From Styela clava (lineage: Eukaryota > Chordata > Ascidiacea > Stolidobranchia > Styelidae), in NCBI RefSeq assembly GCF_964204865.1, contig NC_135261.1, forward strand, positions 6,696,001 through 6,760,000: 64,000 nucleotides of DNA, given 5' to 3'. The position numbers and the translations under genes are program-made. The stretch's first letter is position 1; every line of letters begins with the position of its first letter. The notes beneath the pieces are model-generated. The model made no database searches and was not told the DNA's origin. It saw only the letters and a program-made list of their open reading frames with translations. Below are positions 4,558-38,968 of this stretch, piece by piece.

Positions 4558-7500
4558 TTACATTATACCGCCAAGACAGCAACATAATTCCCCAATGGCA
4601 ACTCCCAACTCCATGCATTCACAGAATAACATGCAACAGTCAGAATCGCAGCAATTGTCCGACAGATCTGTCGGATCGTACGACCCTGAACGTACAAGAG
4701 ATCGTGACTTCTTTAAAACGCAATGCAATGAATGAGGTTGTAAAATCAATTCATATTCATACATATACACTGGAGGGCGCTTCCATAGTATGTGAACCAA
4801 GATGGCGGACACCGGAACGTAGTATGTGTACCAGGTTAGGATTAGGCTATAATTTTATTCCAATTTTCTTCATTTTAATTCTATTACGAGTTTGGAGACT
4901 AGCCAAGTGACTCCCGTAGTATTTGTACCTGAAATTTGTACCTTAACCTGATACACATACTACGTTCCGGTGTCCGCCATTTTGTTTCACATACTACGGG
5001 AGTATCCACTGGAGAGCCAAATGATCGGCTGCTCATATTTCTGGGATACCTTTAAGTTCCTGATATGCAGCCGCTTTGCTGCTATTTCTTGAGCAAAAAC
5101 ATGGTACCAGCAGGCGGCCAATAGTAACAATTCCTAATGGTGTATTAACAAAATTTCACCGCATTCAAGCCAGGCTAATTTTTTTTTCTTTGGATATAAT
5201 ATATCAATTTTACTGCAGTCTCAGTAGCAGGCGGCCAATAGTAACAATTCCTAATGGTGTATTAACAAAATTTCACCGCATTCAAGCCAGGCTAATTTTT
5301 TTTTCTTTGGATATAATATATCAATTTTACTGCAGTCTCTTTCTAACTATCCAATATTTTAGGGATAAATATAAGGACTATTGAACTTCTCATATTTTGA
5401 TATTTAGTTATTTCTTTAATTGTACCTGCTCTGCCTGAAGAGGAGGATCTTCTTTCACTCTCGTCATCTAAAAATAGACGTTTTTGTTCTGAATATCTGG
5501 AGAATTAATTCCCCAAACGACCGAAAAACTTTACTATGTCATCACTTTTTATGGTATAAATATGCTGATCAATTTTACCAAATGAGTTCTTCATATGCAA
5601 AATTCAAATATTAAATATTGTAGGAAATTGTTAGGTAAAAAAGGAATTATATATGTAATACTAGGCTTTGAATAAGATTACTATCATGCTTACATATTAA
5701 GATTCATTCATTTCCTTCTTTGACTTGATATACCTGAACTCCCGTGGTACGTGTACCAGGTTGGGGTTAGGCCATAGTTTAGTTTCGATTTTCTTATTTT
5801 AGTTCTATTACGAGTTCGGGGACTGTCTGTGTTGGTCAAGTGAATATACACCCTGCCCATAGGTTTCAGTACATTTACACAACTTGATGTAAAATAGGCA
5901 AACAAAATTCAATCAATTCAATTACCTAGAATATTTAGCCAGTTTCTATCACAGGCATTTGATTTGTCATACTAACTCACCTAATATAGGATTTCAAAAT
6001 GATAATCAATCAGGTTTACCTTTGCAATTGTCACAAATATTATCTTTATTCTTGTGGTGATCACTCGCATCCAAGCATTTGATGCAAAAAGCTCTCTTGC
6101 ATTTTTCACAAAAGCTGCCAAAATAAATTTTGAAAATGATTTTAGAGTACGAGCAAAGAATAAATTTTCCCAAAATTATATACTATTTGTTAATCACTAG
6201 TCCCATTTAAATACGAAACTTTCCATGTTACAACAAGCACAAGTGAGTGCTACCGAGTGGCTTTTATTTTTATCTCGTTATGTCAGAGTAGAGTCAAGAG
6301 ACTTGAAGCATTAAGTTTAAGTACCGTAGTAATCAAATGTTTTTGAATTAAAACGAGGGCGCCTCAGAAGTATGTACCAATATGAAGGTAACTAATTTTG
6401 TTCGCCTACTTTACATCGAGTTGTGTAAAATGACTGAAACCTATAGGTACGGGATATATTCACTTGGCTAATACAAACAGTCCACGAACTTGTAATAGAA
6501 CTAAAAATCGGTACACATACTACGGGAGTATCAAAACGAGACCTTTTTGCGTCAATTTCAATTCTCCAAGTCACAGCATATGTCAAAGGTAACAAAGCAA
6601 TCGTAGTTAAAAAAAATATCACCCGAGTTATTTCAAGTTTGCTTCCAGGCCTCAAGCGCTTTGATACGCTAAGGTTTAATTATCTTTTATTTGAGTTTAT
6701 TTGATTTAATTTTACTCACTCAACCCTCTGCATTTCTTTAAAATTCTCTGTGCATCGGCAACATCTCAGTGCTAATTCTCCAATTTCAGCCTCGTATTGT
6801 AAACTGCTTTGTTTTGTATGTAATGGCGATGGATGGGTGTGACTTTCCAACCCCTGTTATTAACTTGTACCTTACTTGTGAGTATAAGGAAGCGAAGAGA
6901 GAAAGAGTTGGGAATTTTGAAGAGAAACAAAGCATATGGTAAGATTAAAAAATTGTTGTCAGAAATTGAAGCACATTTTACCTGAATTTTATCAAAGCAG
7001 TTGTCGCAAACATTTTCAGGCTCTCCTTCGGGAAGGTATGGAAGCCAAATTCTATTTTTGCTGCATTCATCACAAACAACATTCCCACATGCTCTGCAGT
7101 TGATTCTTAAATTTTATGGGCTACTTTATTAAACTAAGCAATTGTTTTTCTGGTATTTGTTATTCAGGGCCTATTATTTTTTCTGGGTTATTTGGTTATG
7201 GTACGATATAATAGTATAATTGCTAGGCCGGGATCACATGAAATAAGAAAATTCAGACGTCTCCTTCGATGTTGCAAACGGAACGAATAAAAAATATCCA
7301 TGCTTTACCAAAAGTAGAACATGAAAAATCGCGTCAATGAAATGCGTAAATAAATACCAAGACGGATAATAACAAAAACGAGAGCGATGCTCACGATGCG
7401 ACGAAATTCAAAACAAAGTACTTTTCGTACCGTACATACTGTTACCGGTAGCATACCAAAAAATATTCTAGTTTCGCGTCGTTTCCAGTCAAAAACCGCC

Positions 7501-8846
7501 GTCACGATTGAAGGATTCAAAACCGAGTTCCCCTGGATGAAAGAAATATTTCATCGAATTATCAAAATTAATAGACTTCTAAAGACAACAACAATCTTCA
7601 ACCTCGAAAATTTTGAAGCAATTAGTCCAGTAACGAACAAGATAAGTGATTTGTTCACAACAAGAAGAAGAAAAGGAATACCAACAAAAAACAACCTAAT
7701 ATCAAAACGATCGTTATGTTCATTTAGTGTCCAAAAATTTAAATATTCGTCTTTCGGAGTGGCTCGGAGTACAGCAAATGGTATAATCTACGATACACAA
7801 GCATTTTGTTGATGAAAGAAACAGACTGATCTTACCTGGAGTCTATGAATGCATGTTCACAATTATGGCAATTGTGAACAGTGTTTGACTCAACGAAAGG
7901 AGGTTTCTTTTCCACCAAATCTAAATTTAAAACAAACTAAAAATATAAAAATGAATTGACGTAGAGAAAACATGTATTACTCTGGAATGAAAGCAATCAG
8001 TTGGTAAGTTTTGCTTACTATAACTATAACAGAAGTCTTATGTCAGACAGAAGAGCGATGCTCAAATATATGGACACAGAGTAGCACGCGTATACGGTCT
8101 TTCACAGTAGCCTACCGATAACCGCAGTGTTCACGACTTCGTTGTACCACAAGATCGTTGAACCAAAGACGAAATCGCCACATGGAGCGCTATTTTTAAT
8201 TTTGAAGATGTCATCGCACACAGAAACCGAATCTCTTAGAGCCCACAGAAATTTTTGAAATAAATAAATGTAATAGCCTTCCAGCGAAAAATACAATCTT
8301 TAACCTCTAAAAAATTTTAAAGCCAATAATTAAAGAGAAAGCGGTTTTTCAATAATGATAGAACAAAAAAAATTCTAAAAACAAGAACAACAAAATATCA
8401 ACAAAACGATACATATGTCTACTACGTCTCTTATCAATTCCTCTTGTTCGGTGGAATACCCAGTCACCAAAAGTACGCATGCAGGGTTTATATAAGGAGA
8501 AATATGACTGATTTTAATACAAAAGTATGGTCGTGCTTTCTAAAAAAGCAGGTATTTAGATGCTTTTTGAAACAGTATAAATACTTGGAAATACAGAGTA
8601 AAGCAATTAGACTCCTGGATTTGCGTATTTGCGTTCTATTAACGAAGTCGTATTCTGAAAAGTCGCACATCCTGTTTATGGAAATTATAACTATACCTAG
8701 TCTAGCATCTTGCTGGAACACTATTGCTGTAAATATAAACATAAAAGGTTTGAATACAGCCCGCGTCACAGCTCGCTTATAGTAGGTTCGCGTTTATATT
8801 GACCCTAAAAATACCAAACCTAAAAAGTAAAAAACTTACGTGTCAT
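4558..8846 (-). CDS. Double FYVE-like zinc-finger protein, copy L
   Basis: Unnamed small zinc-finger protein of about 204 residues. Exons on the minus strand: 8846-8840 (ATGACAC, 7 bases), 7920-7836, 7105-6982, 6853-6720, 6114-6020, 5467-5426, 4685-4558; every intron is GT-AG and phases run 1,2,0,2,1,1. Finger 1 (residues about 20-70) has NCHNCEHAF, INCRACGNVVCDECS, a YLP turn and VCDNCF, the C-x2-C spacing and LP/VCD signature of FYVE domains, but without WxxD or the basic RRHHCR motif, so PI3P binding is doubtful. Finger 2 (about 100-150) has RCCRC, FCEKCKRAFCIKC and ICDNC. A short serine-rich exon (RRSSSSGRA) and a Cys-rich tail (NCCDSDCC ... ELCCCLGGIM) follow. The terminal stop TAA overlaps a perfect donor, GTAAGT, so a further exon is possible. 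The family pattern is known; the function is not. Confidence 0.75.
4776..5006. mobile_element. MITE family 1 (hAT-like), 231 bases with perfect 8-base target duplication
   Basis: Inverted ends (GGCGCTTCC ... / ...GGGAGTATC) enclose the family core: AAGATGGCGGACACCGGAAC, the GTACCAGGTTAGGATTAGGC segment and its inverted counterpart. The duplicated target CACTGGAG stands at 4768-4775 and 5007-5014. Eight-base duplications are typical of hAT-type transposition. Confidence 0.85.
5109..5338. repeat. Two-copy tandem repeat, period 117 bases
   Basis: The block beginning AGCAGGCGGCCAATAGTAAC is present twice, at about 5109-5225 and 5226-5338. The copies look identical, including the nine-T run and TTTGGATATAATATATC. 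Arm A holds one diverged inverted copy at about 21715-21835, so this is a recent local duplication inside an intron of zinc-finger copy L. Confidence 0.9.
5738..5905. mobile_element. MITE family 1, truncated copy
   Basis: Contains the family segments ACTCCCGTGGTACGTGTACCAGG, TAGTTCTATTACGAGTTCGG and GGTTTCAGTACATTTACACAACTTGATG, but the right end does not show the usual GGTACACATACTTC...GCGCC terminus. It lies in an intron of zinc-finger copy L. Confidence 0.7.
6358..6532. mobile_element. MITE family 1, 175 bases with perfect 8-base target duplication
   Basis: Flanked by AAAACGAG at 6350-6357 and 6533-6540. Ends GGCGCCTCAGAAGTATG and CATACTACGGGAGTATC are imperfect inverted repeats. It lies in the intron between the two halves of the second zinc finger of copy L; arm A carries a family-1 element in the same intron (about 20660-20848). 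Confidence 0.85.
8040..8430. repeat. Dispersed repeat family 2 (about 360-400 bases)
   Basis: Starts near AGAGCGATGCTCAAATATATGGACAC and ends near ATACATATGTCTACTACGTCTC. Related copies are seen at about 1360-1690, 2925-3240, 7540-7740, 15110-15465, 19400-19800, 23460-23820, 28190-28460, 42620-42920, 48820-49170, 56725-57085 and 61450-61700. Shared internal landmarks are the AAGCAATTGGTCCAGTAGTTAAAGA stretch and a (G/C)ATGACGTCA-like box. No convincing terminal inverted repeat or coding capacity; the class is unresolved. Confidence 0.65.
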
Positions 8847-10074: not shown

Positions 10075-11600
10075 CTTCAATTATAATCTTTTAAAAATTA
10101 AAATTGGTAGAACCCTTTCATAGCCCCCTATATGTGAAACACAATCTCTGAGGTTGAGCCAGTCTTGGTTGCGCATGTAATTAAATAAAATGCAGTTATT
10201 GGACAATCATGTACATTTATATATAACGAGTTATGATTAAACCAAGTGTATATATGTTAACTCTTTGAACTCTGAATACCCAGAACGACGCTACTCTCTC
10301 ACCCTGACCTCCCACGGCGTCTCATCGATTCGGCGCGTTAAAAATGTGTAATATCCCTAATTTTAAATCAATGTAACTTCTAAACCATTAGATATCAGAT
10401 GGTCTGTAATATGTCTTATAAAAGCTAATCTAGTCTTTTATTTATAACTGGCATCATTTTTTACGAGATGTTTTGATGAGATGTGAGATGTGTCAGCCTA
10501 TTTTCAGTTCCATAAGATTTGACACCTTTTTTAGAAATGTGTCATCAATATAAGTAAAATTTTGAAAAGTATACAAAATTACCTTTCGGGGGATATACGA
10601 ATGACTTTCTTAACTTACGCATAACTCATTTTATTGCGGAATTTGTGCTATCGATTCCAATGGTTTGTGAACAAAATTGATCAACTATTCTGATGCCAAG
10701 TTTGCTTTACGACGCAAAGGGCGATGACGACATTGTCACGATAACGTCCACGCGACGTTTCGTGCGTAACGCTTTGCGTAAGGTGGATTGTAAACTTGTC
10801 ATTTTCATTGTTTGCTATTGCAAATATTGACTCAGTATCAGAGTGCAACACAAATATATGGTAAATAATATAACCGTACTTTTTACAATAAATTACTGCA
10901 AAATTCAGAATTGTGCGTTTAATATTCCATTACATTTGAGCAATCTTGAATTTTAAATCAACATTACCAATGCGCCACCGTAACATTTAAAGCTCTTAAT
11001 GTTTATCAATATTGGAGATTACTTGAAATTACGTCTCTCCCCGACATTCTCCATCGAGCTTTCACTCATACACAATACTGGGCTATATGTCAACAAAATT
11101 ATTTAAACTCTCTGACTTGAACCTTGTAGCATAAAGTTTACTTAGTGCTATGTTGTGTTTGCACAACCTTGTTTGCCAATTTGATAAATGAATCGTGATG
11201 AGATTGTTTGTATTGTCATGGTTACTATTGTCTTAAATTGACATTCAACTGGAACGCACAAATACAAGTGCCGTAACAAACACTTGCACACGTATCTATA
11301 TCATGTCTATCGATAAAATTTGTAGGAGGCAAAATATTAGATATGTATGAATACTAATGTTGAGTTATATTTTAAGATTTGGACATCGAGGGATCGTTTA
11401 GAAAGACGTGTGATGGGAGGGTTAATGAAAGGTGGCTAGAAAGTCCGAATAAAATAGTCAATACAGATTGCACATGCAATTCTATACTGTTTTACTAGAA
11501 AACACAAAAATCAATTAGTTTACGTTTAATCACTACTCAATTGTGCCTAATAAATGAGACTTTTTGAAACTACGGTACATAGATTGTATATTACAAAAAA
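10075..11600. other. Non-coding flank upstream of zinc-finger copy C
   Basis: No open reading frame or exon here that I can support. The stretch 11100-11300 is conserved, inverted, in block C' (about 39370-39530), as expected of duplicated upstream DNA. A TTAAC-starting sequence at 10258 resembles a piggyBac end, but no matching partner end was convincing. Confidence 0.5.
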
Positions 11601-14600
11601 ATGAAGGTCACACCACAAATGGCATTCCTGTTTGGTAAGCTTTTGAATAGATTTATTCTGTGACATTACTTCCAATTAATTGTTCATAAATGAACAAAGC
11701 TCGTAAATGCTGGGATAGATTGGATGAAAAAAACTGTGAAGTGGGGAAATAATATAATCATCCCGACGCTCGAACACGAAATTAGAAAAATTTTACACGT
11801 TTACTCCAACTCTGGGTTGTGAAAATCATGACTCCCGCTACGACTCCGAACTCCGAGAATATCAAATTTTAGTAAATACTTTGCCAAGCTTAAATTTGTT
11901 GATTTTTAAGAAAGTTTATTAAACTAAATGGTTTTAGCGTTTTGTAGAATATTTTGATTATCTATATTACCAATACGGTACCAATAAAATTATTAATTTC
12001 CTTTACGAAAATGGCGAAAATGTATATGCTTGAACATCTGTTTGTGTATGGTTATTCCAAAAAGTTTCTATTTTAATATTTTGATTTTCTATATTACCAA
12101 TAAAAACAAAAATTTCAAGTTGAAAATATTTCGGCTTCGACTCCAATGAATACATAACGAACTCCGACTTCGACTCCCATTCTGCAGCCCTGCCCTCAGT
12201 AGTGGTCTGCACAGAAACTGCTTTTTTGGAGTAATAGGAATTTTATTTTTTGTTGTATTAACCGCGCAGTTTTATTTAAGTCTTGCCAATTTGGTCGGGG
12301 TCAATCATTAACCTCAATGTAATATGAGAAATAAGCAGTATTTTAAAGAAAATATTTATTGAATCATAATTTATTATAAACTGACTATAAAGATTGAACA
12401 GCGCAAATGTAATATTTTATTTACGATTTTTCCTAGACTTTTTTGAAAGGAAACCTCCATTTGTTCAGTCAGACACTACAACCAACTGCCATGAGTGCAG
12501 CAAGGTATTCATTGACTATATGTAAGATTTGTAACATAATTCTATGTTTGTGTACCTAAATCTATAGATGCTCGCTTCAAAATACATGGTTTTTCGTTTT
12601 GCCATTCACTTGAGAAACTAATTATAAGCTAAGAAAGTATAGTGCCACAAAATAAACGGGCTATTGCACAACTAAAATGGTACAGCTGAGAATAATTATA
12701 ATTCTTTTACGTTGTTAGTATGATTCCTTATTCTAGAAAAGCGGGATTGTAGTTAATAAGTCTGCAAAATTACCAGCATGCGTCGATTATTTATTTGAGG
12801 CCGCGCCTCCGGGTAAACGATAAATATGGAAACTTTGTGTCCAAGAATAGATAGATATTTCTTCGTTTTTTAGAATTAACTGCATGTGAGAATGTTGTTA
12901 GTTATCGATTTAAATAGGTAAGTATGTTGATAGGTATTTGTCTGTCTGTCTGTCTGTTAGACGCACGCGATATCTCACGAAAGCGAGATTGAATCTGCTC
13001 CAGAATTTGCATGTGCATTCACCATATGTCGTACCAGAAGCCTATTGATTTTGGATACATTATGTAGTATAATTAGCGAGATATTAATTAATTAGTGATG
13101 GAACACAAGGTGTCACTATGGAGTAAGAGCGCTGTTTTGGGTGATCCCCTAACTTTCTATCGATAAGTCTTCGGTCTCCGACCGATATTCTCGTTTGTGA
13201 TGATTGTAGTAAAAATCAAATTTGGCTTCCATACCTTCCTGTCAACAAGCATCGAAAGGCCTGCGACGACTGCTTTGAAATAATACAGGTAACTTGATTG
13301 AACCAATGACATGAACAGACTCTAGTCTTACTATTGGATGTTTAACGTCCCTCACTCCACACAAAGCTTTGTAGATATAATCAGTCACTGCTGGATAGAG
13401 AGCTACTTTACTTTGAATGGGTCCGAATACTTCCTGAGTGAAATGGTGAACTGGAGATTTTAAATCCGATATTTTTAAACGTGTTATATGATCTTTCCGT
13501 GTGTTGTCTCCCCACTTGTGTTTTCTCTCATTTGCTGTTTTAAGTGATTGTTATAATTGCTTTAATTGGTTCCGCGGCATCTAAAAAGGCATAAAGTTGT
13601 TGTGTTCCGCGTTCTGCAGGGATCAGAATATTTTCTTCGTAAGCAGGTTTGTTCTCTCGGTATAGCCCGCAAGTTATAGTTGGTTGGTATACGTCTGTAA
13701 TTTTTTCCTTATGAATGTTCCCAAAAAAAAACAAAATTTCTAGAATTTGAATCTCGAAGCGCCTCGATCGACGTTTTATGTGATAAATAGCAATGTGCTG
13801 TACAAAAATGAAATTGGAGAATTGGCGCCCAGATATTGTCGATGCACCGAGATATTTGACGAAGAGCAGAAAACCAGAACGTGAGTAAACAACGACGATC
13901 GTAAAGTTAATCGATAACAGTAAGTAAATGTTAGCCATTAGTACAACAAGTATTTATGTATCGGCTTTTGTAGCTATATAAAATCATAAAATATTATTTT
14001 TATCCTTCCCTTAGTAAAGAATAAAAATGTAGTTCTTCACCTTTACGTAACAAGTTTCTATAATTTTTCCTTGCGTGATTGGTGAATAAAATCAACACCG
14101 TCTTCAAAGTGTCTTAATCAAATATAATCTAAAAGTCTTTTGCGTTGACTTGAAGATTGCTGAAACTACATCTTTTAACTGATTAACACATCCTTTAAAC
14201 TGATTCTTTAAATTTCTTGACTTGGGCACTGCAGATAAATTGTTCTATTCCGAGTGCATTGACAAATCAGGGGTGCTAGTAAAAACGGTCTCAAAATTGT
14301 TTTCAGGTGTTGTGAAAGATGCAAACGAGCTTTTCGCACCGAATGTCTGGATTTAGATTCTGAAAGCGATCATCGTTCAGATGGAGCTGTTATTTGTAAG
14401 AGCTGCAAAAACGAGTCTGGTGAGTATACTGCGACCAAATAATTTCTTTCATTCAGGGTTCACATTACAGTATAGTTTTGAAATTTTAACCGTGACTGAG
14501 TCGAATTATTACAAAATAATTAACGAAAACTGAAGATTGGATGAAGCGAATGAACCATGGAAGAGTCATAAAGATGAAGATAGATGAAAACGAGCTAAAT

Positions 14601-15660
14601 TATTGACATCTGCATTATGTTTTTGAAGGAAATGTAACGATCGAAAAGTTAATTACCAATAAACGTAATGCTTATTCTGGTAACTTTAGTGTCGTTTTGT
14701 AAATTTTAATTTCCCTTACTTTTATTCGATAATAATATTTAATGGAATAAGACGACACGAGATTTAATATGTATACATTTAATATACAATAATTGTTAAC
14801 AATATGTCATAAACCTATTAAAACAGTTTTATTTCTATTAGACGAAAATGAAGACGGCTCAGTATTTCGCACTTCAGGTATGAATAAATGAATAGCGTAT
14901 ATTATATGATGAATCAGGTAATTTACAATATTTTGTCTTGTTTTCACTGGATGTGTATTTGTTTGGATCCTCAAACTCAAACGATTTAACTATTATCGCC
15001 GATGCCAAATGTCCGTGGATTCATCGTTGAATGTAGACGGCGAAATATCATCATATTGTGGTTGAATTTCATAAGTTACGTTCTTTACGACATGGAGTGG
15101 ACAGACATATGGAACGTTTTGTAGTTATGTTGTTGTTGTTCTTAAAATATTCTCATCACTTTTTGAAAGATCGCCTTCCTCTTTAATTACTGGACTAATT
15201 GCTTTGAAATTGTCAGTGGTTTAAGATTGTTTTTTTCTCTAGAAGGCTATCACTTTCATTTCTTTCAAAAAATTATGTGGACTCTGAGATATTCGTTTTT
15301 CGTGTGCGATGACGTCATAAAAATTAAAAATAGCGCTACTTGTGGCGCTCCGACTTCTCACATCGATCATGCGGTCGAGCGAAGTCGTGAACACTGCGGC
15401 TACCCGTAGGCTAATGTGAAAGACTGTATACGCGTGCTACTCCGTGTCAACATATTTGAGCCACAATCTCTTATTTGTGTGTATAAATACAACTTGCTCG
15501 TATATTATGGTATTTTTTATTTACTGACTTATTTTCACAAACAGCCGCAGGATCAGACTGCTGTGATGACATCATTGGATCAATTGGGAGATGTATTGGA
15601 GAATGCATCGGAGGAGGTTTCCTATTTTTCCGCGAATGTTGGATTGGTTTTAACGAATAA
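11601..15660 (+). CDS. Double FYVE-like zinc-finger protein, copy C (finger 1 lacks a Cys pair)
   Basis: Paralogue of L and R, about 213 residues, open throughout. Exons: 11601-11634 (MKVTPQMAFLF), 12437-12521, 13168-13288, 13744-13880, 14307-14419, 14842-14877, 15545-15660 (stop TAA at 15658). All junctions are GT-AG and phases match those of L and R. Finger 1 begins NCHECSKVF, but the CxxC of the second half (CRAC in R) is replaced by RSPT, one codon shorter overall; the later VCDDC and ACDDC pairs remain. Finger 2 is retained (YCRC, CCERCKRAF, ECLD, ICKSC), with the third C of FCIKC-type replaced (FRTEC). The tail exon is Cys-rich (GSDCCDDIIGSIGRCIGEC). Expected consequence: finger 1 can bind at most one zinc normally. 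It may be a divergent functional paralogue, since no stop or frameshift is present. Confidence 0.7.
15110..15465. repeat. Dispersed repeat family 2 with a perfect CRE-like box
   Basis: Copy of family 2 in inverted orientation relative to 8040-8430. It carries the palindrome TGACGTCA at 15310-15317 and ends CGTGCTACTCCGTGTCAACATATTTGAGC. It lies in the last intron of zinc-finger copy C. Confidence 0.6.
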
Positions 15661-15704
15661 CTGTGTGTAGCATATAATACTTTTGCATTTGTATTAGAGC
15701 TAAG

Positions 15705-15989: not shown

Positions 15990-17145
15990 ATTCAAAATGT
16001 AATATCACAAATTGTGGTTCTCCCATCCACTGTCAAGGCCGATCATCGAAATACTTTATATTGAAAGTTTAATCATAATTTCACTATTTTACTCGTGCAA
16101 AATCTGTTTGAATAGTGATTAAGTATTTTGCGCACGCTATATACATTCGAAGATTGTTTTCAAAATAATTAAAGCTCAGAATTCATGGTTTGATTGATAT
16201 AAATCCGTAGCTTCGATAAAAAGGATCTAAACGATATAACGCGGTGTGGGAATTAATAAATAAAATGAACGTATTAAATAACGAAACGAATAATCGGAAA
16301 TGATTATCCAATTATACGACCAAGCCTTCGTCATTATGTGTACAATTTTGTGATTGCGATGGTGGCAGCAAAGTCACAATTACTTACGCGCTATCTCTGT
16401 AATTCTGTGAAGAAATGTCAGTGGATTAGAAAAGACGAATTTTAAATCCAATGTCTTAAATCGGGGAAATACAAGAAATTGAGATAAAATTGGGTATCAT
16501 CAGTAAGGTTTTCAACAGTCTATCACCCCAAAAAGAATGACCCGGGAAACGTTTATACGAATTGCCATGCATCAAAAACGTACCACTTCATATGCTGGAC
16601 GACTCATCACGCCATTATTTGTACTTAGGTTGTGAAATATAGTCACAAGGGAGTGTATGAACTCATTTGCTATTTTGTTCTATTTGCTATTTCGCTTTTA
16701 CAGTTTGCTTTTATCGTAAACTAACCTTTTTAGTGTATAAAGCTAATATATTTTTGTCTTCCATAGATATAAAGATAAAAATTTGTTTTTGTTCCAACAA
16801 ACTTTGGTTTTCTCGCAATATCATCTCGCGTTTTATCTTTGTCGGTTCCAAAAACGTCGGTTCCAAGGATCTGCTGAAAAGGCCGAGTTGGTTTAATTCT
16901 ATTGTTTCTTCACTGTCAATGTACTATGAATTGCTTCTTTTTGATTTTCATCCTGTTATACATAAAGTTGTTGTCGCGGGAGATAATTCCACCCTTTACA
17001 ACTCCTTTCATCAATCATAAATTTGTATAATAAAATTTTTATTCAGTCTATCGATATTCCTAGTTCGAAATATCTTCCAATATGGTCTGTTGTCAACCTT
17101 CTTCTCAATATTCACTTCAATTTTAAGGCAATCAATGGTTTAAAC
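15990..17145. other. Non-coding remainder of block C
   Basis: No exon that I can support. The stretch 16620-17035 is conserved, inverted, at about 35385-35765 in block C', but the open frames in it (for example 16667-17020) are low-complexity and are not preserved as protein between the copies. Confidence 0.5.
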
Positions 17146-18480: not shown

Positions 18481-21400
18481 ATGACACGTAAGTTTTTATA
18501 TTTTTCAAGTTTGGTATTTTTAGGGTTTATAAACACGCGAACCTACTATAATTGGGCTGTGACATGAACTGTATTCGAATCGTTTCTTGGTATATTTTAA
18601 GCATTAGAGTATCAGCGAGATGCTATAGTCAAGGCTGCCATCGATATGAACGCGCATTCGATATGAATGCGCGTAGCAATCAATGAGATTCTAATTTCAT
18701 TTCTAGCAAATCAATCATTCGAATTGACCAATCTGAGTACCCGATACAAGTACCACTACCCCTAAAATAAAACAAAAATAAGGACATGTGTTAAAAAAAA
18801 GGACCTTTCTTATTAATAAGTACAAAAATATTTTCTAAGACGAAGACCTTCAAATAAGGGCAAATCTTAGAAATAAGGACGTTATGGCAGACCTGGGTAT
18901 AGTTATGTCTTATAATTCACATAAATGCACGTCCTTTCAGAATACGTCCCGGTTACGTCCGGGAGTCTAAGTGCTTTACTCTATATTTCCAAGTATTTAT
19001 ATTGTTTCAAAAAGCATCTAAACACCTGCAGGCGACTGTGAAAGACCTTATACCGTGCTACTCCGTGTCCATATATTTGAGCATCACTCTTCTGTCTGAC
19101 ATAAGACTTCTGTTATAGTTATAGTAAGCAAAACTTATCAACTGATTGCTTTCATTCCAGAGTAATATATGTTTTCTCATTTCGTTTTCATATTTTTAGT
19201 TTGTTTTAAATTTAGATTTGGTGGAAAAGAAACCTCCTTTCGTTGAATCAAACACTGTTCAGAATTGTCATAATTGCGAACAGGTATTCATAGAGTTCAG
19301 GTAAGATCAGTTAAGATGTTTTTTATATCAACAAAATGCTTGTGTATTGTAGATTAAACTATTTGCTGTACTGTCACTGCAAGAGATGCATATTTAATTT
19401 TTTTCGAGACGAAATGTACATTATAATCGTTTTGATATTATGATGTTGATCTTGTTGGTATTCCTTATCTTAATCTTGTAAAAAAGTCACTTTTCTCATT
19501 CGTTACTGGACCAATTGCTTTAAAATTTTCAGTGATTGAAGATTGTTGTTGTCGCTAGATGTCTATTACTTTTATTTATTCCTAATTACGGATATGCTGA
19601 CATCTGATATTTCACTCCGAATTCCGCTGAATTATTTTTCATTGATGAGAACACGGTTTTAATCCGCCAAGCGTGGCGGCGGTTTGCCATTTTACGCGTC
19701 GCTACGCGAAACACGGAGATTTTTTGATAGGTTACCCCCAACAGTATGTACGTTACGAAAAGTACTTGTGTACAGATATTTGAGCATCGCTCTTTTATGT
19801 TCATTATTATTGTTATTGGTATTTATTTGAACATTTCATTGGCGCGATTTTTCATGTTCTATTTTAAGGTGAAGCATGGATATTTTTTATGAAATAAGAT
19901 TTGAGATTCAGCATTGTTTATCCTAGACTCCTACATATATAAATTTATTTATTACGTTCACAATATCGAAGAAAAAATGATACACCCTGGAATAAAAAAA
20001 CTTTAGTTCAATAAAGTAACCTTTAATATTTAAGGATTAACTGCAGAGCATGTGGGAATATTGTTTGTGATGAATGCAGCAAAAATCGAATTTGGCTTCA
20101 ATACCTTCCCAAAGGAAAGCCTCAAAAAGTTTGCGACGACTGCTTAAATAAAATTCAGGTAAAACGTGCGTCAATTTCTGACAACAGTTTTCTATTCTTA
20201 CACATGCTTTGTTTCTCTTCAAAATTTTTCTTTCTTCGCTTCCTCATACACATAAATAAGGTACAAGTTCATAACAGGGGTTGGATAGTCAAATCCACCA
20301 ATCGCCATTATATACGAAACAAAGCAACCTGCAATACGAGGCTGAAATTGGAGAATTAGCACCAAGATGCTGCCGATGCAAAGAGAATTTTAAAGAAATG
20401 CAGAGGGTTGAGTGAGTAAAATTGAAAAAAAAAATAAACCAAAATAAAGGCTACTTAAACCTTAGCGTACCAAAGCGCTTTAGACTTGGAAGCCCTGGAG
20501 GCAAACTTAAGATATCTCGATTCTCGAGTGAGATTTTTTATGTCCACTTGTCGTGACTAAATAACCAGTCCAACTACGATTGATTTGTGACCTTTAACAT
20601 ATGCTTGACTTTAAGAATTGAAATTGAGGCGACAGGGTCTCAATTTGGTACTTTCGTAGTGTGTGTACCAAGTAAGGGATAGGCCATAATGTTATTTCAA
20701 TTTTCATTTTTAGTTCTTTTAACGAGTTCGGGGATGAGCCAAGTGACTCCCGCAGTATTTGTACCTAAAATTATGGCCTAACCCTAACCTGGTACACATA
20801 CTACGTTCCGGTGTCCGCCATTCTGGTTCACATACTTTGGAAGTACCCTTTTCTCAATCCAAAAATATTAGATTACTAGACGGTACTTAAACTTAATGCT
20901 TCAAGTCTCTTGAGTCGACTCGGACACAAAGTGATAAAAATAAAAAGCCACTCGGTAGCACTCACTTGTGCTTGTTGTAACATGGAAGATATAAAGTTTC
21001 GTATTTGAAATGGAACTAATGATTAACATATAGTATATATTTTGAGAAAAATATATTCCTTGCTCATGCTTTAAACTAATTCTCAAAATTTATTTTGCCA
21101 GCTTTTGTGAAAAATGCAAGAGAGCTTTTTGCATCAAATGCTTGGACGCGAGTGGTCATCACAAGAATAAAAATAATATTTGTGACAATTGCAAAGGTAA
21201 ACTTGATTGATTATCATTTCGAATTCCTATATTGGGGTGAATCAGTATGGCGAATCAAATGCCTGGGATAGAAACTGGCAAATAATGAAAGTAATAGATG
21301 CTGTAGAATATTCTATCAAGTCAAAGAAGGAAACGAATGAGCCTGAATATGTAAGCTTGATAGTGAGTAATATGTAAGCTTATTACCTAACAATTTTATA

Positions 21401-22092
21401 CAATATTTGGCGCTCCTGACGTATTCGTACCAATGTGGGGATTAGTAAGGGAAAATACGAACACTACTGGAGCACCCAATATTTAATATTTGTCGTTTGC
21501 ATATGAAGAACTCATTTGATAAAATTGATCAGCATATTTATACCATGACAAGTGACGACATAGTGTTTCGGCATTTTTCCTTTCGTTTGATGAATTAATG
21601 ATCAAGATATTCAGAACAAAAACTTATATTTTTAGATGACGAAAGAAGATCTTCCTCTTCGAGCAGTTCAGGTAGTTCAATGGCTCTTATCAATACCCCC
21701 AAAATATTGGATAGTTAGAACGAGACTGCAGTAAAGTTGATATATTATATTCAGAGTATAAAACAATTAGCCTGGCTTGAATGTGTTTAATTTTGTTAAT
21801 ACGCCATTGGGAAATGTTACTATTGGCAGCCAGCTGACTATATGTTTCAGCTCAATAAATAGCGGCAAAGCGGCTTAAGAACTTAACGGTATCCTAGACA
21901 AAAGTAGCCTCTCATTGTATTGATTTTACATCGTCATTCATTGCATTGCGTTTTGTAAATTCACGATTTCTTGTATGCTCAGGGTCGTACGATCCGACGG
22001 ATCTGTCTGACAATTGCTGCGATTTTGACTGTTGTGAACGCATTGATTTTGACATTGGGGAATTATGTTGCTGCCTTTGCCGTATAATGTGA
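18481..22092 (+). CDS. Double FYVE-like zinc-finger protein, copy R
   Basis: Best-preserved member of the family, about 196 residues. Exons: 18481-18487 (ATGACAC), 19216-19300, 20035-20158, 20278-20411, 21102-21196, 21636-21671, 21983-22092. All are GT-AG with consistent phases. Finger 1: NCHNCEQVF, INCRACGNIVCDECSKNRIW, YLPKGKPQKVCDDCL, matching FYVE spacing but lacking the WxxD and RRHHCR lipid-binding motifs. A linker (GLDSQIHQSPLYTKQ) leads to finger 2: RCCRCKENF, FCEKCKRAFCIKC, ICDNC. A serine-only run (SSSSSSS) and a Cys tail (NCCDFDCC ... ELCCCLCRIM) end the protein; clustered Cys at a C-terminus could be palmitoylated (inference). The stop TGA lies inside GTGAGT, a possible donor. The 7-base first exon is conserved in L. 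The 5' flank AACAACAATGACAC is identical in both arms. Confidence 0.78.
20660..20848. mobile_element. MITE family 1
   Basis: Ends GGTACTTTCGTAGTGTGTG and CACATACTTTGGAAGTACC are inverted repeats. The core carries TAGTTCTTTTAACGAGTTCG and ACGTTCCGGTGTCCGCCAT. It is in the intron between the halves of zinc finger 2 of copy R; no clear 8-base duplication. Confidence 0.75.
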
Positions 22093-22345: not shown

Positions 22346-22580
22346 GATACTCTCGAAGTATGTGTACCAAGATGGCGGAAATCGCAACGTAGTATGTGTA
22401 TCAGGTTAGGATTAGGCCATACTTTTAGGTACAATTATTACGGGAGTCACTTGGCTAGACCCCAAACTCGTAATACAACCAAAATAGGAAAAATTGGAAT
22501 AAAATTATGACCTAACCCTAACCTAGTATACATACTACGTTGCGGTGTCCGCCATCTTGGTAACATACTTCGGGAGCACC
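22346..22580. mobile_element. MITE family 1, 8-base target duplication (7 of 8)
   Basis: Flanked by GAAAAATT (22338-22345) and GAAAAAAT (22581-22588). Ends GATACTCTCGAAGTATG and CATACTTCGGGAGCACC are inverted. Carries CCAAGATGGCGG at the left end. Lies just downstream of zinc-finger copy R. Confidence 0.82.
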
Positions 22581-22849
22581 GAAAAAATCATATAAAATGG
22601 ATAATCGAAAAACGGTTAATTGAAAGTAAATTTGTTTTAATGGGTTCATGCTTATTTTTAATAAATATTACTATTATAAATAAAAATGTATATTTCCAGC
22701 TGTTCCGCTCTTGAAGACGAATAAAGGAAAAATAGTTGAAGTCTTCATAATACTCTTCCGGGATTGAAATCATTCACATACAGCAGGTACTATGTACTGT
22801 AAACTGGAAAATGTACATCCAGAAAGTGTTTGAGTTAAAATTATAACTT

Positions 22850-24524: not shown

Positions 24525-27500
24525 CAGTGGCGGCGCGTCAATAGGGCCAACCGGGGCAATGCCCCGGTTGTTTTTTCGGTATATTAAAAAATATTCGAAA
24601 AATTTCTCAATATCGGTTGCACAGACTGTCTACACTAGCCATATTCTCCCGACATGGTTCATTTTTCGCTCGCAAAGCCTTCGCCGAACGTCGACGGGGC
24701 GACGCCGATTTTGCCCCGGTTGCTCGTTGTATATCGTATTCTCTTTTTTATCTTCCACTCGCCGCGTTTGTCTCGTTTGTTTTCTGTTTCTTTTACTAAA
24801 TCATCGGGGCCGATCGGGGATAGCCCCGAAATTATGACGACACAATACCGACGTTTCTTACAACAACGTGTTGACATATTCACGCATTCCTTCTCGTTCG
24901 TTGGTTGCTTGAAGAGTTGATAGTTTCCTCGCCTTCGTTTTTGTCGCTTGTTTCGTTATTTGAATCAGTTAGAGACCTTTAGTCCATTTGCTTTCGATTT
25001 TCCACATTCCTTTTGAGCTCCTCACTTCTTTCCGGCTTCGCATTTCTTAGCCTTAGACCTCATAATGAATAAGGTTGATGCACTACTTCGCACTCCGTTA
25101 TCGCAGCTGCCGCTGGAACAAAAATTAGAGGTACAACGTCTTGGGCCTTATCAACCAAAAAATTGTTCACTGGAACAATCCCATAACGGAGGAAAGCGTC
25201 GGCGTACATTCTGCGCAGAAACTTGGTATAAAAAACACGAATGGTTGTGTTACAGCGAGGAAAAAAAGCATTTTTTTGTTTTTATTGCCTACTTTTTGCT
25301 ACCGTCCGTGACTCACGTTGGTGTAAATTTAGTTTTAGAGATCTTAAACATCTTCCCGAGCGTGCCAGGGATCATCAATCTTCTATGGAGCATCTGGACA
25401 ATGCAGTAAAATACCGAACATTCGGAAATGTTAATATTGCAGCATAGTTGGATGAAGGACGCGCGGTTTCTTTTCGCCGGCACAACCAAAACGTCGAGAA
25501 AAACCGCCATGTTCTCGGTCGATTGATAGATGTTTTGAAGTTCATTGGTTGTCACGAGCTGTCCCTCCGTGGGCACGATGAACGGGCTGGCTCTTCTAAT
25601 AGAGGGGTATTTTTGGATATGGTGGTTTACACCGCATCCCTAGATACAGTAGTGAGAGATCATCTTGATGCCGCAACTGTTTCGAAAGGGACATCTAAGG
25701 ATATCCAAAATGATTTGCTCGACTCAATGTATAAAATTTATTTACAACATTTGGCTCTGGAAATTGAGAATTGCCAGTTCCTTTCGATTCAGTCTGACGA
25801 GACAACTGACATCACGTGCGTTTCCCAACTGGCTGTGATTTTTAGGTTTGTGAAAGATGGTAAACCTACCGAGAGATTTCACAGCTTTGTACCAATCGTT
25901 GATCGCACGGCTTGCGGGATATCGGCTGTACTGAAAGAAGTGTTACAGCCTTACAACGCGAAGTCAAAATTGATAGCTCAAACTTATGACGGCGCGGCAG
26001 TCATGAGTGGGTCGAAACATGGTGTTCAAGTTTATATAAAAAAAGATTTTCCTCATGCGCATTTTTTACATTGTTATGCACACCAATTTAACCTCGTTAT
26101 TAAAAATATGTGTCTTGATACCCCTCTCGTCCGTATATTTTTTGCAAATGTTTCGGGGTTTTCTTCATTTTTTTCCGTTTCGCCGAAGCGCTCTGACCTC
26201 CTTCGCCAGATATATCGCCGCCGTCTCCCAGGCGGAACTTCCAATCACGCGTGGTGCAGGGCGTGTCCGAAATTAGGTCTGAGCTCATTGAGTGTTTCGA
26301 TGGCATTCAGAGCTCTCCGGTTTGGGACGAACGCTCTGTGAGGGAGGCGGCAGGTCCAAAGCGTCTGCTAGAAGATGGTGAGTTTTCATTTTTTCTCCAC
26401 AATATTCTATCACGTGGATGTATTATACGGCGCATTGCAGTCAAGGCTAATGGATGGAGCGTCTGTGCAGTCGTGTATTTCAGACTTCTGCGATGCTGTA
26501 TCTCGTATCCGGGAAACAATAAAATACGACGACACATGGAGTGCTTCTTTACGCCGCGGGCAAACAACGCAGCGTTTGATTTTGTCTGCAAAGGAATGCT
26601 GTGACATTCTGGTGAATCAAATAGGCGATCGTCTGCGCACTGAACACCTTGCCGCGTTCTCTTTGATGAACCCCAAAAATTTTTCAAAATTTGCACGTCA
26701 ATTTCCCATCCATTTGTTGGCTACTGTCTCCAAATTTTACCCCATGATAAACGTGGGTAAATTGGAAAATGAATTGCGATGTCAATCAAACTTTTTTGAA
26801 CATCACATCAACTTGCGCGCTCTATGGGTTCCTCATAGATAACACTCTAGTAACTACCTTTGCGGCGTCTGCAAAATTTCTGGACATCATTTTGACGACG
26901 CCTATTTCTTCCGCCGACGCAGAGCGAACATTCAGCACGCTGAAGCGTATTAAAACGTATCTCAGAAACACAATGAAGCAAGATAGATTAAATTCCTTGG
27001 TTGTTTTATCCATTCACAGAGACGTTATTTCTGAGATGCATGACTTTAATCAGCGCGTTATTGAGCATTTTGCTTCCAAGAAACCGCGGCGTGTTGCATA
27101 TATGTTCAAGCAGTAAAAGTCTAGCAGCATATATATCTATGAGTGAGCGACGCATGTCCTTATCTTTGCATTACCTTTCCTTTCTTAATAGTAACGTTTT
27201 AAACCTTATTTTAGGTTTTGTCTGCTTTCCCGAAGTTTCTGTTAATATGTCATTGTATTTATCTGGGTAAATATTGCCTTTCCCTTTGAAAGAGGTTTCA
27301 AAATAAACTATGTCTATATTTATTAATCCCTTGACTTGGACCGGTTTTAAAGACACTTTCTTATCGTTAAAAATTGTCGCTTTTGCCGATTGGTTGTTAC
27401 CGATGGAATGGTTTTTATACTCATAAAATGATGGGAGAACTTACAGCGCTCATCCTGTCCCCGTAGATGGGGGTGACTTGGTCCCGCAGTAGCTTGCCCC

Positions 27501-27810: not shown

Positions 27811-28914
27811 AAAAATCTGTATATTTTGTATTGTTTTTATCATTTTTTTACAGCAGTAATGCTTTAATATGAATACTCTGAAACATATTCCGTGTATTTT
27901 TTTCGTGGTGTCGTATGCCACAATTTATGCAACTGGACAGCAACAGCCTTCAGAAAAATGTACATCTTCCATTGCTGCCATTGGAAGCATCGTTAATATG
28001 GTAGATGGGCATATTACGGTAAGAGATTGTGGAGAATGCCAACTAATATCATTTAGGGGTCCTTCGATATTGTGTATCAAACTGCAAATCGTTTCCCCTT
28101 TTCTTCTTATTTCGTATTCACAGTGTTCATTGAACACGAAATCGACCTATGTATTATGAATCGTTTTTCTATTTTGTTGTTGAGCTTCACGTTAGTATTC
28201 TTTTTCTTCTTCTTCTTCTTCTTATGAAAAAAATCGGTTTTCTCTCTAGCGACTGGACCAATTGCTAAAATTAAAGAGATTAAAGATTGTCGCTAGAGGG
28301 CTAGTACTTTCACTAAATTTTCTATGAATCCAATGATATCTTATATTTCATCCAAAATTTCACAGTATTATTTTTTATTCATGGGAACACGTTTTTATTC
28401 ATGGTCTTCACATTTTTTATTCATAGTCTTCGTATCCATATAACTGAGCATTGCTCTCCTGTTTCACTTACCTTGCAAAGAAATATTATTTATATAATGT
28501 TTGTTTAGACCAAACCAAAAGGTGTCACGGGCTCGTCCGTTTCTGACTTAAGTGCCGTTGAGCAAATTGAGAAAAGACTGCGACGAATGAAAGGTAGGAT
28601 ACGGTTAGGTACATCTCAGTTTGTTTTGAACTTTGAGTATTTAGACAATTCGTAGCAGAAACTGCATTTTCACAAAATATTTTTAATTGCGTCTATGTTA
28701 GCAGAAGAACAAAGTGGATTTCGATTTATCAAATAATTTTGACACAGACAAGTTTGTAAACGCATTAAATACTTCAATTCTCATCAAAGCTAGCTGAGAA
28801 AAATTAGAATTCCTGAAATTTGAAATGATAAAATTACTCAATATTCTTGTGTAAAAAAAATTCTATGAAATAAACTTAAAACATCTTATTACTGCAAAAC
28901 AATTCGAAGATTGC

Positions 28915-30426: not shown

Positions 30427-31514
30427 CTGTTTTTGTTATGCTCATATTATATTACGTCGTTGCGGTAGATCTAATAATCGGTGAAATAATAAAATAAAAA
30501 TAAATGGTGCTAATAAAAATGTTCACTAGTATTTGTTTCTGAAAATTTCTGAAAAAAAATTTTGGGATATACCAGATAGATATATGTTTTTGTAAAAGTA
30601 TTCCTTACCATAATAGAGATGGAATGTATTGTCTGCCTATGTATCTTCCTTTTCTAATATTTACTAATAATCTAAAATTATTAGTTACTGCCATCTTGGT
30701 GACTCAACACAGAAAAATCAAAATTCCTGCTGTGGTACATTTCCTCAAATTAAGATGGTACAATATTTTGAACGGAAATATTAAATCCAACTATTTTTCA
30801 AATATATTAAGATGATGAGAGCCAATGGCTGCAAGTTGATCTACAAGAACCCACAACTGTGACAGGTCTGTTGACTCAAGGAAGATCGAATTGTTGTAAT
30901 CAGTGGGTAAGATCGTTCAAAGTGTCGTACGGCAACAGTGAGAGTTCATTGGCAATGTACCAAGAAAATGGGGCCACAAAGGTGAATATCTTAACATTAT
31001 ATTTTTTCATTTGTTAGAAAAATGAATATATATATATATTTTCGAAAAGAGAAGGACCAGTTCAAATTAGTGCGTACTTAGTCAGTCGATACAATACACC
31101 GATTCGCAGAATTAACGTTAGCACGCATTAATACCTATTGTTTCATTCGCCAGTCAAAGCAATAATCTTCTGCATAAATCTTGATCGGCTGGACAAGAGT
31201 CTAGACGTTGTTTTGTCGTCACAGGTGAAAAACTACAGTATTTATTATACAATATGCTCGATTAAGCGCCCATAGTTGTAAACAATTAAAACGACCTGCA
31301 GTAAAGAAAAAAAAAATTAGCAATATAATAAAACACAATGAAATGCTTGAATTTCATAAACGTAATTGATTTTTAGATTTTCACTGGGAATCACGACAAG
31401 ACGACAATTAAAGAGAATTGCTTCAGCCAGCCGATTACAGCAAGGTACATCCGGATTCATCCTGTCACTTGGCAGGATCACATCAGCATGAGAATTGAAA
31501 TTCTAGATTGCTGA

Positions 31515-35318: not shown

Positions 35319-36239
35319 AAAATGTTCTCATTAAGTTTCCGCAGTAGATATATTGATGTAGTTGTAAAGAGTGAAATTCTCTTCCGCTACAATAACTTTA
35401 CATATAACAGGATGAAAATCGAAAAGAAACGATTCAGAGTACATTGACAGTGAAGAAACAATAAAATTAAACCAACTCGGCCTTTTTAGCAGCCCATTGG
35501 CATACTTTACTGGATGGAGGCCCTTAAGTGTCAGTTATGTTGACAAAGATAAAACGCGAGATAATACTGCGAGAAAATCAAAGCTTGTTGGCACAAAAAC
35601 AAATTGTTATTAAATATTGAATCCATGGAACACAAAAATATATTAGGTCTATACATTAAAAAGGTTAGTTTACGATAAAAGCAAAATGAACAAAATAGCA
35701 AATTAGTTCATAAATTTCCTTGTAATTATATTTCACAACGTAAGTACAAATAATGGGGTGATGAGTCGTCCAGCATATGAAATGGTATGTTTTTCTGATG
35801 CATGGCAATTCATATAAACGTTTCCCGTTTCATTCTTCTTCGGGTGAGGAACTGTTAAATATATATTTTAGGTAATATTGAAGTTTATATCTAACTAAGG
35901 ATACCAAATTTTATCTCAATCTGTGTTTCACCGAATAAGACATTCGATTTGAAACATGTCTATTCTCATGTACTGACATTTTATTACATAATTACCGCGG
36001 TAGCGCGTAAGTAATTGTGACGTTTCTTTCAGTAATCATCGCAATTACAAAATCGTACATACAATGACCAAGGCTACAACTCGGTCGTTCGAAACTACTG
36101 GACAACAATCAGACCATGAATTTTGAGCTTTGTTGATATATTGTTAACAATATGCGAACGTATAATGCGTGCGCACAAAGTTCATTATCGGTTGAGCAGA
36201 TTTCGCGCCGGTAAATTAGTTTAAATTATGTTTAAAATC

Positions 36240-36600: not shown

Positions 36601-36742
36601 CAATAAAGTATTTCGATGATCGGCCTTGGCAGTAAAAATGGGAGAAACACATATTTGTGATATTACATTTTTAATCTAACACACTCTCTCTATTAAACGA
36701 CCATTTTACCATAGATACAAATGCAAAATCATTCTATGTTAC

Positions 36743-38968
36743 TCACAGCATATCAAAGACGCAACCTAAACATTCTCCGATGACATCTCCAATCAACCCA
36801 CATTCAATGTCATCACAACTGTTTATTCCGCAGCAGTTACTCCCTTCGTGATCATCCGCTCGAGGAGAACTCGAGTATGTAGAATCAGTGGAAGCTGGAA
36901 AAAGGTCAGTAAATAGTGAACAACATGATATACAAATAAAAAAATATATAATTTGTGATATCCATTTACAATCTATTGATATTTCATAGTTTACATTCAA
37001 CGATGAATCCACGGACGTTTGGTATCGGCGTTAATAGTTAATCGTTTCAGTTTCATGATACAAACAAATACGCATTCAGGGAAAACAAGACTCTCACTAT
37101 TGCAATATACCTAATTCATCATATAATATACACTAACGGAAACTAATTTTCTTCAGTTTAATACGATAATAAATAAATGAATTATCTATTCATACCTGAA
37201 GTACAAGAGACTGAGAGGTCGTCATTTTCGTCTATTGAAAATAAAACTGTTTTAACAATATTAAAACACATTGTTGAAAGTTACTGTATGTTAAATGTAT
37301 GTATCTCAAATCCTAAAATAGTTAGAGCGTCTTACTTCATTCAAAAAAATATTATTGGAAAACATTAATGGAAATAAGAATTACCAAACGGCACTGGAGT
37401 TAACAGAATCAACACTACTAATTTTTATTGATAAATACTTTTTACGTTTGTTTCATTTTCTTATCACAAACATAGACAATTGCATTTAGTTCTATAACTT
37501 TTGAGGTTTTATTTGCTTCGTCGAATTTTAGTTTTCTTCAATTTATTTTGTATATATTTATTTACCTTTCTTCATTTAGTCAAGTGATGGAGTTACAAAA
37601 CAAATTGATTACTTCCGTAGTATTGTACCAGGTTAGGGTTAGGCCATAATTTCATTACGAATTTCCTTAATTTAGTTCTATTACGAGTTTGGTAACTGTT
37701 TCTGTTAGTCAAGTGAAAACCCATAGCCTCATAGGCTTCAGTCCGTTTACACAACTTGAAGTAAAGTGGGCAAACAAAATTAGTTACCTCCATATTGGTA
37801 CACACACTTCTGTAACGCAACGAATTGTATAAACCGTATGTGGAAATTTTCGAGCAAACATTAGGTCGCAGTATACTCACCAGACTTCTTCTCGCGAATT
37901 TCGCAGACTTATTGGCTACATCAAGCATTTTCACAAAGAAAACAATGCTAATTATGCAACGTAGAACAATTATATTTCTGTTCAGCTGTACCATTTTAGG
38001 TGCGAAATACCCCGTTTGTTTCGTGGTAATGAACTTTTTTAGTTTATAATTAGTTTCCCGTGTTCATAGTCAGAATAAAAAGTAAGTATTTCAAGGCCAG
38101 GATTCGAAACACTAGTTATAGGAACATAAAAATGTGCAAAACGTCTTACCTGTAGTCACTGAATATTTCGTTGCACTTATGGCAGTTTGTTGCAGTGTCT
38201 GACTGAACAAATGGGGGTTTCTTTTCCAAAAAGCCTCAAAAAATTTGCAATCAAGATAATACATTTGCGCCGTTCAGTCTATATGGTTATTTGATAATTT
38301 GGTGATTTATTGCATATTTTCTTTAGAATGCTGCTCATTTCTCATTTTTACAGAAAAGTTAATGATTTACCCATTTCTTTGCCCGGAAATAATGCTAATT
38401 ATACATATTGTTTTGGCCTTAGGTAAAACGTCCTCAAATTCGATAGTAAATCGTTAATCTGAAGTGAAAATAGTCAAGACTTAAATAAAACTGCGGGGAT
38501 TTATACAAAAACATATAAACTTCCCATTACTCTTAAAAGCAACAGTTACTGTGAACAGTTTTACTTAGCGCATTGGGAGTCTAAGTCGGGGTTCAGTATA
38601 CTAATTGAAGTCGGGGCGGAAATAGTTTTAAACCTAAAATTTTGACCTTCGAGGGTAATATAGACAATTTAAATTAATCTAAAAGAATCAAAAAGAATAA
38701 AGTTTGCTGAACTTTTTAAAATTTAACGAATTTAAGCTTCCGTGTTCTGAGGTATTCACTATCAAAATTTGTTATTCTCGGAGTTGAATCCGGAGTCATG
38801 ATTTTCACAACCCGGGGTCGAGTGTCTGGATGTTTATAATTTTTTCCTGGCTGGCAGTCTGTTCTGAGTTCGCTTTGCTCATCTATGAACAATTAAAAAT
38901 GATATCACAAAATTAAATCTATTTAAAAGCTTACCTGGCAGGATTGTCATTTGTGGTGTGACCTTCAT
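36743..38968 (-). pseudogene. Double FYVE-like zinc-finger gene, copy D (internal exons lost)
   Basis: Inverted relative of copy C. Recognisable exons: 38968-38935 (MKVTPQMTILP, shared with C), 38234-38150 (KKPPFVQSDTATNCHKCNEI), 37231-37196 (ENDDLSVSCTS) and 36894-36743 (STDSTYSSSPRADD ... GSNCC ... CDDIECGLIGDVIGECLGC). The exons for the second half of finger 1 and the first half of finger 2 are absent between 38150 and 37950. The exon for the second half of finger 2 survives only as a remnant ending at 37881 (AAGTCTG|GTGAGT, as in C), with a lost T and an in-frame stop in the frame set by its donor. A MITE sits at 37608-37815. No functional zinc finger can be encoded. Confidence 0.75.
37608..37815. 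mobile_element. MITE family 1
   Basis: Carries ACTTCCGTAGTATTGTACCAGG, TAGTTCTATTACGAGTTTGG, AGGCTTCAGTCCGTTTACACA and AGTTACCTCCATATTGGTACACAC at its ends. It lies within zinc-finger pseudogene D. Confidence 0.75.

Follow-up and report, generated by a model that had tools for sequence, protein, structure and literature searches.

A candidate family of small proteins with two FYVE-derived fingers and a cysteine-rich tail in the ascidian Styela clava

Comparison of gene copies in a 64,000-nucleotide (nt) stretch of the Styela clava genome (NCBI RefSeq assembly GCF_964204865.1, contig NC_135261.1, positions 6,696,001 to 6,760,000), hereafter the window, and elsewhere in the same genome suggests that three intact copies, A, B and E, form a family of small proteins (203-233 residues) that arose by tandem duplication, each with two FYVE-derived fingers. 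As the best reading, to which we give a probability of about 0.45, these proteins would be adaptors that have swapped the binding of phosphatidylinositol 3-phosphate (PI3P) for attachment through a cysteine tail. A preliminary description of the window had proposed a small multi-copy family whose FYVE-type fingers lack the PI3P motifs. Both proposals stand, the one with purifying selection across A, B and E, and the other with a first finger above the Pfam FYVE cut-off and a second finger linked to FYVE through a distant relative, copy G.

Gene models and conservation of the intact copies

The finger exons were located by six-frame translation and tblastx comparison, in which the motifs named in the preliminary description were all found in the sequence, and exon 1 by aligning the DNA upstream of these exons in A, B and E; the exon joins of these genes rest on the comparison of copies. 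Gene A (minus strand, 8846-4178, 211 residues) and gene B (plus strand, 18481-22724, 203 residues) are complete as modelled, with eight exons each (Table 1). Their common start, CAACA ATG ACA C/GTAAGT, reads ATG CCA C/GTAAGA in E. The assembled coding sequences of A, B and E have an open frame, GT-AG introns and identical phases, the exons starting in phase 0, 1, 2, 0, 2, 1, 1 and, for the last exon, 2; exons a, b and d measure 85, 124 and 95 nt in all three copies, and exon c 134, 134 and 128 nt. The predicted proteins share one layout, namely two fingers, a linker, a serine-rich stretch, acidic CC pairs, a hydrophobic cysteine cluster and an acidic end.

The end of the protein had earlier been placed at a stop codon (4558 in A), which now turns out to sit in a GTRAGT splice donor. 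In A, B, D and E this stop is part of GTAAGT or GTGAGT, and because a phase-2 GTRAGT always gives an in-frame TRA, the apparent stop is no evidence of a protein end. A downstream TTTCCAG/CTGTTCC..., common to A, B and E, completes the split codon, and the last exon, g, yields CSDLEDD in A (stop TAG), CSALEDE in B (TAA) and CSALEEE in E (TAA). A farnesylation CaaX end (CRIM in B, CRLM in E) was also considered and is ruled out by the GTRAGT donor in A, B, D and E with the conserved last exon behind it. More generally, false stops arise in sequence-only gene models when a phase-2 donor (xxG TRA GT) is read through.

Identity over aligned positions is 165/203 for A and B, 132/209 for A and E, and 140/201 for B and E. 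The pairwise ratios of nonsynonymous to synonymous substitution (dN/dS) are 0.37, 0.36 and 0.33 in the same order, at dS 0.25-0.63, with Fisher p values of 3e-4, 3.3e-7 and 3.5e-7; with such values the coding conservation of A, B and E is not due to chance, and the three copies are under purifying selection.

The searched genome comprises 376.6 Mb in 379 contigs, and the window lies within the contig here called C16, which carries six copies: A, B and E are intact, and C, D and F are damaged, with the distant relative G added on contig C13. Copy E (233 residues) is found 1.1 Mb off the window, and copy F (locus L010), at 7.61 Mb of the same contig, is a pseudogene whose exons a and b contain stops and frame shifts. 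Self-comparison of the window shows two diverged inverted duplications: the block of gene A (1-9.3 kb) pairs with 18.0-29.5 kb, where gene B lies in reverse orientation, and the block of copy C (9.3-17 kb) pairs with 35.3-40.6 kb, where copy D lies. The preliminary description had counted four paralogues with one exon layout in the window; this applies to the complete genes A and B and fails for C, in its finger ligands and exon e, and for D, in its middle exons. Searched one by one against the genome, exon a is found in at least five places and exon d in at least four (E-value up to 1), all of them C16 copies; exon c in at least six (E-value up to 1), being the C16 copies and G; and exon b in at least seven (E-value up to 0.001), being the C16 copies and two other FYVE genes on C5 and C13. 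These counts are lower bounds because only the best candidates were scored. As a separate observation, a 125-nt stretch directly upstream of exon a is 97% identical between A (7964-8088, minus) and B (19054-19178, plus), above the exons themselves; it partly overlaps a repeat also present at 15.1-15.5 and 23.5-23.8 kb.

Identity and origin of the two fingers

Finger 1 of A, B and E is, as judged by profile and ligands, FYVE-derived: the whole proteins pass Pfam FYVE (PF01363, curated cut-off 27.8 bits) at 56.2, 57.4 and 51.1 bits, the finger has all eight cysteine ligands in FYVE spacing, and ZFYVE16 is among its best matches in the PDB (1e-7). It probably derives from a FYVE domain of the SARA/ZFYVE16 type. 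The genome has a gene called SARA-like (L025, C13:15.41 Mb), a label that rests on its tree neighbour ZFYVE16 (94/89), in which the domain is split in phase 2 within the second Arg of RRHHC. An intron at this very site, in phase 2 and in the residue three before the third cysteine, also interrupts finger 1 in A, B and E; the acceptor of G exon b falls there as well. Among the twelve FYVE loci compared only L025 has this phase-2 site: in L019, L020 and L026 the acceptor is one base away and would be phase 0, seven others read through, and L027 was left unassigned. In a tree of 17 rows only the half finger of G groups with SARA-type FYVE (94/89, then 90/76). Finger 1 resembles the FYVE domain of SARA/endofin (ZFYVE9/ZFYVE16), through L025, in its eight ligands and the phase-2 intron before the third cysteine, whereas A, B and E differ from these proteins in the changed motifs, the second finger, the cysteine tail and a length of 203-233 residues, which leaves little room for the Smad-binding and C-terminal regions of SARA, at which no search was aimed.

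As for the motifs, WxxD, RRHHCR and RVC are the three PI3P signatures according to a passage of PMC11101434, and exophilins are without them. In comparison with EEA1 and ZFYVE16, WxxD reads FVES/FVQS in finger 1, F replacing W and S replacing D; RINCR stands in place of RRHHCR, with two residues missing before it, beside the basic patch, and NVC or KVC in place of RVC. Finger 1 does not carry the signatures WxxD, R(R/K)HHCR and RVC. In finger 2, RVDFC or VHFC replaces RRHHC, and NIC replaces RVC. By these comparisons, finger 1 and finger 2 alike show erosion of the three motifs.

Finger 2 of A alone scores 18.8 bits with Pfam FYVE and 16 bits with FYVE_2 (PF02318, cut-off 27.2 bits). Here copy G becomes important, which lies at 20.63 Mb of C13 and surfaced with exon c at an E-value of 0.15 only, its exon b being picked up in the genome-wide Pfam FYVE scan. 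Its phases (0 after exon b, 2 after c and 1 after d) are as in A, and ZFYVE16 is its top PDB match. Finger 2 of G reaches 29.8 bits with Pfam FYVE, over the cut-off, and 21.9 bits with FYVE_2, under it. This finger passes Pfam FYVE, matches RUFY1 at 8.5e-6 and is joined to the second finger of A, B and E (98/96) by the 17-row tree; mainly on these grounds finger 2 of the family is read as FYVE-derived, by way of G. In the reverse search of G exons c and d against the genome, copy E comes at 0.0016, followed by two other FYVE genes (0.0089 and 0.033) and then by B (0.05), so that on sequence grounds the link to G is not an exclusive one. A search of the 58.6 kb around G found neither its first-half exon nor its tail.

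Two further identities were rejected. A FYVE_2 identity for finger 2 falls below the cut-off in A and in G. That the pair arose by duplication of one finger within the protein was rejected as a proven origin: a profile comparison of finger 1 with finger 2 gives a probability of 59.6% (E-value 8.9e-5) and both fingers carry a phase-2 intron, but the introns are one codon apart and the fingers stay separate in the tree. Two FYVE-type fingers in one protein are also found in DFCP1/ZFYVE1, a large protein with canonical FYVE fingers; compared by domain layout, the present family is alike in the two fingers and lacks the canonical motifs.

The cysteine tail and the candidate function

The tail that follows the fingers measures 63 residues in A, 55 in B and 87 in E; it contains 10, 9 and 21 cysteines, respectively, and carries a net charge of -13, -11 and -22. 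The tail has two parts. The first consists of variable acidic CC pairs, which in E make up a pentad repeat encoded by 6.8 tandem copies of a 15-bp unit; the second is a conserved hydrophobic cysteine cluster followed by S-x-L-E-D/E-D/E. This cluster (LCCCLGGIIC in A, LCCCLCRIIC in B, IFCCLCRLIC in E) lies within the most hydrophobic 15-residue stretch of each protein, and it is the part expected to be acylated. No Pfam family was found for the tails of A, E and D at an E-value up to 10, a search in which HMMER filters drop most matches above 0.1; NCBIfam, a prokaryote-centred library, gave nothing for A, and the tail of E matched only E itself in the genome at an E-value up to 1. MDFI and MDFIC have a C-terminal cysteine-dense tail with CC pairs, to which the present tail is alike in its pairs; an MDFI-like tail was rejected, as the tails of A, E and D have no Pfam match.

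The adaptor reading can be put as follows. Both fingers would no longer hold PI3P and would serve instead as protein-contact surfaces, the conserved hydrophobic cluster near the end would be S-acylated and pin the protein to a membrane, and the protein would act as a small membrane adaptor. If the tail is acylated at the cluster, membrane attachment would therefore have shifted from the FYVE finger to the tail, and attachment through the tail is in itself plausible. A precedent for such an exchange is Rheb, for which a passage of PMC5869587 describes FYVE and S-acylation replacing each other as membrane anchors in protists; Rheb is an unrelated GTPase and serves as analogy only. Fingers with eight cysteines of FYVE type that are without the three PI3P signatures, as here, are those of rabphilin-3A, melanophilin and SPIRE (FYVE_2), by the definition in PMC11101434, from which the present family differs in that finger 2 of A and G falls below the FYVE_2 cut-off and no Rab-binding helices were identified.

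Several observations weigh against the adaptor reading and its premises. The whole tail is very acidic, as acylated strings seldom are, and most of it in E consists of a CC-D/E-L-D/E repeat. The tree leaves finger 1 of A, B and E unplaced, not with SARA, and because of this, and because the half finger of G sits on a long branch (1.26), the SARA origin is graded as likely only. Profile searches, as suggested in the preliminary description, identified finger 1 as FYVE; finger 2 of A alone stayed below all Pfam cut-offs, and against PDB chains it matched ZFYVE19 (0.0098), rabphilin (0.034) and the PHD fingers of BPTF and UHRF1 (0.04), being by its own sequence no closer to FYVE than to PHD. Finally, in the same passage of PMC11101434 rabphilin-3A does not bind PI3P and melanophilin, which has none of the three motifs, is reported to bind it; motif loss is thus no proof of lost binding, and for this reason we only infer that PI3P binding has been lost here.

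The melanophilin precedent, together with a Pfam FYVE score above the cut-off, also speaks for ordinary endosomal FYVE proteins, whose fingers would still bind PI3P or another phosphoinositide with the tail merely helping; three changed motifs in finger 1, two residues lost by its basic patch and a further eroded finger 2 make this improbable. The chief rival is metal binding by the tail, which would then be a metal-binding or redox module in the manner of metallothionein, and the protein a cytosolic metal buffer or metal-regulated adaptor with no lipid anchor. The alternation of CC pairs with acidic residues would fit it, as would the 21 cysteines among the 87 tail residues of E, which come partly from the 15-bp repeat, but the stretch conserved in A, B and E is hydrophobic and not acidic and the tails match no Pfam family; we regard it as unlikely, if less so than the other rivals. 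That the copies are duplicated fragments heading to pseudogenes, with no present function, is suggested by the damage in half of the six C16 copies; this is the least probable of the explanations. Against it, all eight exons are retained in A, B and E together with their splice sites and phases, and dN/dS is 0.33-0.37 at dS 0.25-0.63.

Damaged copies, neighbouring features and wider meaning

Copy C holds exons 1, a-d, f and g, with a frame open from its own exon 1 into exon f, where it stops ahead of the donor position. Its exon b is without the CRACG part, by which the second cysteine pair of finger 1 is gone, and finger 2 has lost two ligands (Y and R replace cysteine in RYCRC and RTEC); its Pfam FYVE score is 19.9 bits, under the cut-off of 27.8. 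Copy D (38968-35830, minus) has exons 1, a, f and g, while b, c and nearly all of d are absent; its 22-nt exon g gives SSPEEE with stop TGA, and the counterpart in C matches it. No separate serine-run exon e was found in C or D. Upstream of exon 1 the two copies share a block (11177-11311, plus, and 39482-39348, minus; 87% over 131 nt), which could be a promoter or an unrecognised part of the gene. Between exons f and g of D, the stretch 36350-36593 matches its own reverse complement (80%).

Around these genes, remains of a hAT-type transposase lie at 25448-27116 (plus), with DUF4371 at 67.8 bits and the hAT C-terminal dimerisation region at 38.8 bits in separate open frames. The discoidin and collagen-like region includes a tandem duplication, whose copies span 40.8-45.0 kb and 46.9-51.9 kb. 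An exon-like frame (MNTLKHIPCIFFVVSY...EKCASAIAAIRSIV...DCGECQ) occurs three times downstream of A and B, at 1679-1981 (minus), 3242-3574 (minus) and 27860-28159 (plus), and has the look of an opening exon, from a secreted collagen-type gene in this neighbourhood. In the genome, 20 stretches matched a pattern for viral contigs and none was confirmed. The genome also has a GH6 match above the cut-off (35.4 bits, cut-off 27), which supports a tunicate origin, GH6 in animals being a tunicate mark; a search for mitochondrial COX1 gave no match.

Table 1. Coordinates of exons and neighbouring features (window positions unless a contig is named)
Feature	Position	Strand	Remark
A exon 1 (ATG ACA C/gtaagt)	8840..8846	-	conserved in A, B, E
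A exon a, first half of finger 1	7836..7920	-	
A exon b, second half of finger 1 (RINCRACG...ENVCDNC)	6982..7105	-	Pfam FYVE
A exon c, linker and first half of finger 2	6720..6853	-	
A exon d, second half of finger 2 (FCEKC...CIKC...CDNC)	6020..6114	-	
A exon e, Ser run	5426..5467	-	counterpart in E
A exon f, Cys tail	4562..4685	-	ends at GTAAGT donor
A exon g, last (CSDLEDD, stop TAG)	4178..4202	-	
B exon 1	18481..18487	+	
B exon a	19216..19300	+	
B exon b	20035..20158	+	
B exon c	20278..20411	+	
B exon d	21102..21196	+	
B exon e, Ser run	21636..21671	+	
B exon f, Cys tail	21983..22088	+	GTGAGT donor
B exon g, last (CSALEDE, stop TAA)	22700..22724	+	
C exon 1 (MKVTPQMAFLF)	11601..11634	+	
C exon a	12437..12521	+	
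C exon b	13168..13288	+	without CRACG Cys pair
C exon c	13744..13880	+	first Cys of finger 2 to Tyr
C exon d	14307..14419	+	one finger 2 Cys to Arg
C exon f	15545..15662	+	frame stops within
C counterpart of exon g	16519..16540	+	match to D; position counted by eye
D exon 1 (MKVTPQMTILP)	38935..38968	-	
D exon a	38150..38234	-	
D remnant of exon d end	37864..37908	-	b, c missing; tblastx to C
D exon f, Ser run and Cys tail	36747..36894	-	GTGAGT donor
D exon g, last (SSPEEE, stop TGA)	35830..35851	-	
G exon b (RFHCRACGDVFCKAC...VRVCNDCYYRLK), exon c (...SAPRCCRCTDRFGIIKRRK), exon d (FCGECQKACCSRC...LRVCYNC)	C13, 20.63 Mb		consecutive
F5/8 type C (discoidin) exons and short collagen-like stretches behind hydrophobic leaders	30811-31017; 41483-41686; 43394-43873; 49582-50019	+; -; -; -	discoidin over cut-off; collagen-like below Pfam cut-off

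No account of such a family was found among the matches listed in the open-licence PubMed Central (PMC) literature, nor any match there for FYVE in Ciona, and the terms 'tandem', 'two FYVE' and 'double FYVE' are absent from the main text of PMC2837644 on FYVE and PX architectures. In our view the twin-finger proteins look more like a home-made version of a known type of protein than like a type of their own. More tentatively than the adaptor reading itself, we propose a lineage-specific family in which a SARA-type FYVE finger and a second FYVE finger, both stripped of lipid recognition, may have been coupled to a fast-evolving cysteine tail (in one copy a 15-bp repeat giving CC-D/E-L-D/E), the tail and no longer the FYVE now carrying membrane or metal binding and the copies diversifying mainly there. 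One and the same genome holds the intermediates, namely a canonical SARA-like gene, the relative G and the diverged cluster, and the family would thus exemplify how a lipid-reading domain can shed its ligand residues as the protein acquires a different candidate means of attachment.

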